Below are positions 11,246 to 54,702 of a DNA stretch of 64,000 nt, one piece after another. The notes under the pieces were generated by a model. That model was not told the DNA's origin. It worked only from the letters and a program-made list of their open reading frames with translations, and searched no databases. Both the position numbers and the translations under genes were made by a program. Location of the stretch: positions 1 through 64,000 of the forward strand of contig JAHBUW010000008.1 of assembly GCA_019637875.1 (NCBI GenBank), given 5' to 3'. Source of the DNA: Pseudobdellovibrionaceae bacterium (GTDB taxonomy: Bacteria > Bdellovibrionota > Bdellovibrionia > Bdellovibrionales > Bdellovibrionaceae). Numbering within the stretch: position 1 is the first letter of the stretch; every line of letters starts with the position of its first letter.

Positions 11246-11268
11246 TTCTATTTCGGGGACCAACTCAA

Positions 11269-11296
11269 TCCTCACATTGGTATCCCAATGTGAGGA
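11269..11296. other. perfect 12-bp hairpin, possible transcript end
   Basis: TCCTCACATTGG (11269-11280) and its exact complement (11285-11296) flank a TATC loop. It lies just after the 10886 gene. No T tract follows on the plus strand, so it may be a processing or stabilising hairpin, or a factor-binding palindrome, rather than a classic terminator. Confidence 0.6.
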
Positions 11297-11358
11297 TTCA
11301 CGACTTCATTAAAAAAACGCCACGTCGGAAATCTAAGCTACGCCTGAAGATGAGGTAA

Positions 11359-53964: not shown

Positions 53965-54333
53965 TCAAAACCCGACGACCGCCGCCCGTCCGAGCGTCAC
54001 GGCCAAAATCCCAAGCAGCAAGCTGAGCCCCAAATTCAAAGCGAGAAGTCCCAGCTCCCGCATCTGCAAAAGCGAAAAGGACTCCACCGCCAAAGTCGAA
54101 AAGGTCGAATAAGACCCCAGAAACCCCATCCCAAGAAAAAGAACCAGCGTCGGCGAAACGGCCCGCACCTCGGCCACCCCCATCAAAACTCCGGCCAGCA
54201 AACAAGCGACGAAGTTAATCAATAAGGTCGCGAGCGGAAACGCCTGCCCCCAAAACCGCGCCACGAGAAGCGCACTCGAGTACCGCGCCAAAGCCCCCAA
54301 ACATCCACCGAGACCGACAACAAAGAAGTTCAT
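53965..54333 (-). CDS. crcB: fluoride channel CrcB/Fluc
   Basis: CrcB forms a dual-topology dimer that exports fluoride. The 122-residue protein has four helices with the family motifs GGCLGALARYSSALL near residue 9, PLATLLINFVACLLAG near 33, and GFLGSYSTFSTLAVE near 70, in which the Asn, Phe and Thr line the pore. No ribosome site is visible close to the ATG, and I find no fluoride riboswitch upstream. It may be translated from a leader that runs through the hairpin region at 54421-54585. Confidence 0.94.
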   Translation of the reverse strand: MNFFVVGLGGCLGALARYSSALLVARFWGQAFPLATLLINFVACLLAGVLMGVAEVRAVSPTLVLFLGMGFLGSYSTFSTLAVESFSLLQMRELGLLALNLGLSLLLGILAVTLGRAAVVGF

Positions 54334-54409
54334 TCACAAACGATAAAAACACCCTCACCCCCAAAGCAAGCGATGAGGGAGCAAAGCGACCTCAGAGCCC
54401 AAACCACTT

Positions 54410-54585
54410 CGAGAAAAAAATGGGAGCGCGAAGGCGCGACCAGCCCTTGCGGAGCAAGGGCGACACGAAGAAAAAATGGAGCGTCCGGAGGACGCGACAG
54501 CCTCTGCGGAGCAGAGGCGAACACAACAGAAACGAAACAAACCAGGGGAGCGTTTGCAGTTGAAGGGCCGCGCGAAGCGCAGCCC
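54410..54585. repeat. array of paired small-loop hairpins with compensatory changes
   Basis: Two copies 56 bases apart each contain two hairpins after an A-rich stretch. Copy one has GCGC-GAAG-GCGC (54426-54437) and GCCCTTGC-GGA-GCAAGGGC (54443-54461). Copy two has GCGTCC-GGA-GGACGC (54481-54495) and GCCTCTGC-GGA-GCAGAGGC (54500-54518). The stems differ in sequence but keep pairing. A further hairpin with a GAA loop is at 54565-54585. On the minus strand the first hairpin of each copy is followed by T runs and may act as terminators. No gene is supported in 54334-54626. Confidence 0.7.
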
Positions 54586-54592
54586 GAAAACG

Positions 54593-54617
54593 AAAAAACC
54601 GACCAGAGGTCGGCTTT
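54593..54617 (-). terminator. terminator after tRNA-Gly
   Basis: On the minus strand CCGACC and GGTCGG pair around a three-base loop and are followed by TTTTTT. It lies about 13 bases past the 3' end of the tRNA gene. Confidence 0.85.
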
Positions 54618-54626
54618 TGTGTAGAG

Positions 54627-54702
54627 TGGAGCGGGAAACGGGACTCAAACCCGCGACCTATGCCTTGGCAAGGCATCGCTCTATCAACTGAGCTATTCCC
54701 GC
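54627..54702 (-). tRNA. tRNA-Gly (anticodon GCC)
   Basis: The minus strand reads as a full cloverleaf. GCGGGAA pairs with TTCCCGC in the acceptor stem, GCTC with GAGC in the D arm, and the anticodon loop TTGCCAA carries GCC. The T arm GCGGG-TTTGAGT-CCCGT is standard with one G-T pair. The CCA end is encoded. Length 76 bases. Confidence 0.97.

Follow-up and report, generated by a model that had tools for sequence, protein, structure and literature searches.

REP elements, among them those of the GTAG and CGTC super-families, are intergenic palindromes of 20-40 nt with stems of mostly 6-9 pairs, and the CGTC families occur without an associated RAYT (Y1) transposase (PMC3733652). The hairpin array at positions 54410-54585 of the window (the whole stretch of 64,000 nucleotides analysed here), located in the intergenic gap between crcB and a tRNA-Gly gene, resembles them in consisting of short imperfect intergenic palindromes of 20-40 nt with short loops, in being paired, as REPs often are, and in its stem variants that keep pairing. 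In contrast, REP elements are dispersed, whereas the units at 54410 stand head to tail, and in 3.98 Mb of genome there are just these two and not the many copies expected of REPs. An unpaired GTAG or CGTC tag, as in the definition of these elements (PMC3733652), is absent from the units, which contain no GTAG and a CGTC solely within the stem of hpA2. A search of the literature for REPs in Bdellovibrio returned nothing on point. The array can be described as a local, non-dispersed group of REP-like intergenic palindromes, a reading to which we give about even chances.

Table 1. Features of the hairpin array and its surroundings (positions in the window).
Feature	Position	Strand	Basis
Unit 0 short hairpin TGAGG-GA-GC[AAA]GC-GA-CCTCA	54374-54394	+	sequence; folds on both strands
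A-run preceding unit 1 (minus-strand T-run)	54414-54420	+	direct repeat D5, spacing 56
hpA1 TGG-GA-GCGC[GAAG]GCGC-GA-CCA	54421-54442	+	sequence, folding
hpB1 GCCCTTGC[GGA]GCAAGGGC	54443-54461	+	sequence
A-run preceding unit 2	54471-54476	+	direct repeat D5
hpA2 TG-GA-GCGTCC[GGA]GGACGC-GA-CA	54477-54499	+	sequence
hpB2 GCCTCTGC[GGA]GCAGAGGC	54500-54518	+	sequence; compensatory pairs vs hpB1
Fifth hairpin GGGCcGCGC[GAA]GCGCaGCCC (+); minus strand GGGCTGCGC[TTC]GCGCGGCCC	54565-54585	-	sequence
crcB, fluoride channel	53965-54333	-	Pfam PF02537, E 6.4e-23
Intrinsic terminator of tRNA-Gly	54594-54618	-	context
tRNA-Gly(GCC)	54627-54702	-	context gene

The gene context given in the preliminary description, between crcB and the tRNA terminator, is correct (Table 1), and so are its two units 56 bases apart with an A-rich run before the hairpins. 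These units (54412-54467 and 54468-54523) each consist of an A-run, a hairpin A with a tandem GA/GA mismatch and a hairpin B with an 8-pair stem and a GGA loop, in this order; the distance is 56 nt from A-run to A-run and 57 nt from hpB to hpB. Outside the two units, the array is flanked by the unit 0 hairpin, whose tandem GA/GA mismatch is identical to that of hpA1 and hpA2, and by the fifth hairpin. The GNA-type loops ascribed to all hairpins hold for hpB1, hpA2, hpB2 and the fifth hairpin, which have three GGA loops and one GAA loop, but not for hpA1, where the loop is a GAAG tetraloop.

That these hairpins exist can be read from the sequence, and the region folds far better than expected, with minimum free energy z scores of -6.3 as RNA and -6.5 as DNA and not one shuffle as good. 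Local alignment of unit 1 with unit 2 yields a score of 47, far above the maximum of 28 among 1000 shuffles, and the units are therefore paralogous. In the preliminary description, their stems were considered different in sequence but equal in layout; the layout is indeed shared, but "rewritten" is too strong a word for hairpin B, since only two of the eight pairs differ between hpB1 and hpB2, with both partners exchanged in each (C-G to T-A in one, T-A to C-G in the other). The stem of hpA2 exceeds that of hpA1 by two pairs. In the two-unit alignment, all 28 scorable cells pair and all pairs are standard. The covariation, which consists of two pairs in two sequences and reaches a count equalled by 133 of 500 shuffles, is suggestive, not strong. 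Hairpins with C(GNA)G loops, a loop type generally known for unusual stability in DNA, cluster beyond chance: neighbouring ones are rare, with seven pairs in 849 kb of the genome, two of them at the 54410 array, and Markov simulations (n=8) gave 0-2 such pairs each.

A module of about 57 nt, composed of A-run, GA/GA hairpin and C(GNA)G-loop hairpin, was duplicated head to tail, as the alignment shows, and the copies then diverged with pairing kept, as seen in the two compensatory pairs and the one two-pair stem extension. Pairing may have been kept by hairpin-templated correction (template switching at quasipalindromes) or because a stable folded strand was under weak selection, alternatives between which two copies cannot decide. 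That three hairpins, unlike in the rest of their stems, share the GA/GA mismatch is a hint of selection for one particular folded strand rather than of neutral correction, and nearest-neighbour energies indicate that the GA/GA hairpins are more stable as plus than as minus strand. In favour of a local array speak the paralogy of the units, the two compensatory changes in hpB with all scorable pairs standard, the strong folding, the single locus, the clustering, a spacing unlike that of terminators, the lack of Rfam and Pfam matches and the presence of dispersed GNA-loop palindromes in the same genome; against it count the total of two copies, the small, frequently equalled covariation and the GA/GA mismatch common to three hairpins.

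For searches of further copies, a covariance model was built from the two units, with two N pairs put into unit 1 to accommodate the longer unit 2 stem. Applied to the whole genome (3.98 Mb, E<=10), this model returned two matches, which are the units themselves, and the additional copies anticipated in the preliminary description did not appear; a consensus pattern search of the genome likewise revealed no further locus. The model was also run on wider sets of genomes, from the family (66) through the order (141) to the phylum (369), the own genome being counted each time. No match above noise was obtained in the 65 other genomes of the family, and at phylum level the 368 genomes besides the own one gave matches close to noise, with at most 28 bits; those read at 20-27 bits are mostly coding sequence. 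A DNA search of the family gave short or A-rich, chance-like matches alone, and a degenerate pattern (GCGACAGC-CGNAG-GCGAA) matched four times in 144 genomes, compared to seven times in its control. Generic hairpin scans covered the window and 785 kb of sampled stretches, together 849 kb or 21% of the genome, whereas model searches covered all of it. Tandem GA/GA hairpins occur at background level genome-wide. In the sample, intergenic triloop hairpins most often carry a C(GNA)G loop, with CGAAG the most frequent one, although over all sequence hairpins with GNA triloops show no strong enrichment. A plasmid search produced weak matches, mainly to the tRNA terminator region, and no copy of the tRNA 3' end was found near 54410, so that there is no sign of an integrated element.

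Among the model matches outside the family, L098 (612-770, minus strand) deserves notice. It occupies the intergenic space that separates a TatD-like gene from gapA (both named by eye from the sequence) and consists of double-hairpin units, each about 60 nt long and arranged in tandem, which contain tandem GA mismatches. Like the 54410 array, it has two tandem units with two hairpins each and the same order of parts, the GCGACAGC linker, a GGA loop in one and a GCGAAC tail. However, its similarity to the 54410 units is within the range of shuffles, and common descent does not follow from it; its model score of 28 bits is little higher than the 26.6 bits reached by a chance match in coding sequence. 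There is a slim chance that 54410 and L098 represent a lineage-specific element, acting as structured RNA or as single-stranded DNA, with two GNA-loop hairpins and a tandem GA mismatch, which occurs at rare single loci in the order and whose stems are rewritten while the layout is kept. Other intergenic look-alikes, L099 and L100, are weaker than L098. The matches L109-L113 are located in coding sequence and were rejected as chance, and L092 and L104, which appear to sit in reading frames (read by eye), were discarded as candidates.

The preliminary description had further proposed that the 54410 hairpins and those at 2896-2948 form one class of repeated element. The loop type is indeed common to both, C(GNA)G in either case, and repetition applies to the latter: the stretch 2890-2948 is a member of a dispersed hairpin family, also present in L129-L144, with the consensus GCGTCGACSGCGAAGCSGTGACGTGC, whose pattern occurs at 24 genome sites compared to none for the reversed control and whose covariance model finds 27 matches in the genome. 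Copies are frequently in tandem at about 29 nt. In an alignment of 24 copies, one pair is flipped, G-C in 12 and C-G in 11, and the covariation score lies above all of 500 shuffles, a score that relatedness of the copies can inflate. Of 17 loci with rough gene calls, eight lie between convergent, five between same-direction and one between divergent genes, and three lie within a called frame, a distribution that resembles the one reported for REPs (PMC3733652). In G008, which belongs to another genus of the same family of bacteria, there are 22 matches of a stem-rewritten version with the consensus GCGTGGGCGGC-GAA-GCCGCCACGKGC (GCGTGGGCGGCGAAGCCGCCACGKGC), in which the loop is the same and the ends are similar but the stem is different. 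This GTCGA..GAA..TGACGTG family resembles the 54410 units in its C(GNA)G loop, its tandem arrangement and its compensatory stem variants; it differs in its consensus, a bulged G, its spacing of about 29 nt and its dispersal.

One might suppose that 54410 is a cluster of degenerate members of some dispersed REP-like family akin to that of 2896-2948, as the matching loop and the presence of such a family in the own genome and one other genus would suggest. However, the 2896 model, run in full and without filters, attains at most 6.9 bits at 54410, on the bare GCGAAGC core, compared to 41-55 bits on most of its own members, and model searches of the genome found no second locus with the 54410 layout. 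This relationship is already weakened and appears rather doubtful; with the 54410 model finding itself alone and the 2896 model scoring so low at 54410, the units and the family are separate, and the proposal of one class does not extend to 54410.

As to possible functions, GC-rich hairpins followed on the minus strand by a T-run are reminiscent of intrinsic terminators, and the array might consist of tandem back-up terminators insulating crcB from the tRNA-Gly transcript, since both genes are on the minus strand, 6-7 T follow each hairpin A on that strand and one hairpin was called terminator-like. In this genome, however, intrinsic terminators have the T-run abutting the stem directly (gap 0), as in 40 of 82 stem/T-run pairs in 849 kb (the window and L035-L074) compared to 2 in the reversed control, whereas the T-runs of the 54410 hairpins begin 4-5 nt past the strong stem, none having a U-run directly after it. 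Pairs with a 4-nt gap are at background (6 versus 8 in the control in the same 849 kb), and a canonical tRNA terminator already exists next to the array. Because of this distance termination by the units is unlikely, and we regard the insulating role as improbable.

A functional structured RNA is likewise unlikely, whether as small RNA of the plus strand or as 5' leader of crcB on the minus strand, even if the strong folding, the position upstream of crcB, the two compensatory pairs and the greater stability of the A hairpins as plus strand would agree with it. A search for promoters of the sigma-70 type found no promoter-like site, on the plus strand the array runs opposite to crcB and tRNA-Gly, and the 65 other genomes of the family offer nothing above noise. 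With the Rfam covariance models, tRNA alone was above threshold, and neither the fluoride riboswitch nor any other family matched. A dedicated gene-regulatory role of the array is not supported. Very remote, finally, is the possibility of a short stretch that codes for protein or used to do so: one plus-strand frame gives QPLRSKGD and QPLRSRGE for the units, in which the changes in hpB are synonymous or conservative, but six-frame translation gave no Pfam match, the frame belongs to no long ORF with a plausible start, and pairing accounts for the identical changes.

The 54410 array, best read as a local array of REP-like palindromes, matters little and looks like a modest local curiosity, albeit a clean case of a diverged hairpin duplicate that still pairs. 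More useful is the dispersed 2896 family, which has a counterpart with rewritten stems in a second genus of this bacterial family and so opens the question of how stems change while loop and ends stay.

Other palindromes were encountered in this genome. A further family comprises long perfect hairpins of GGTACC blocks, for example GGTACCATCTACCCTGC[GAA]GCAGGGTAGATGGTACC, adjoining GGTACCACGTACCG hairpins, with sites at L038:14238-14274, L044:6432-6515 and L051:10981-11036 and possibly related ones at L069:10827-10864 and L074:14566-14620. In the window, positions 11267-11298 form a perfect 14-pair hairpin, AATCCTCACATTGG[tatc]CCAATGTGAGGATT.
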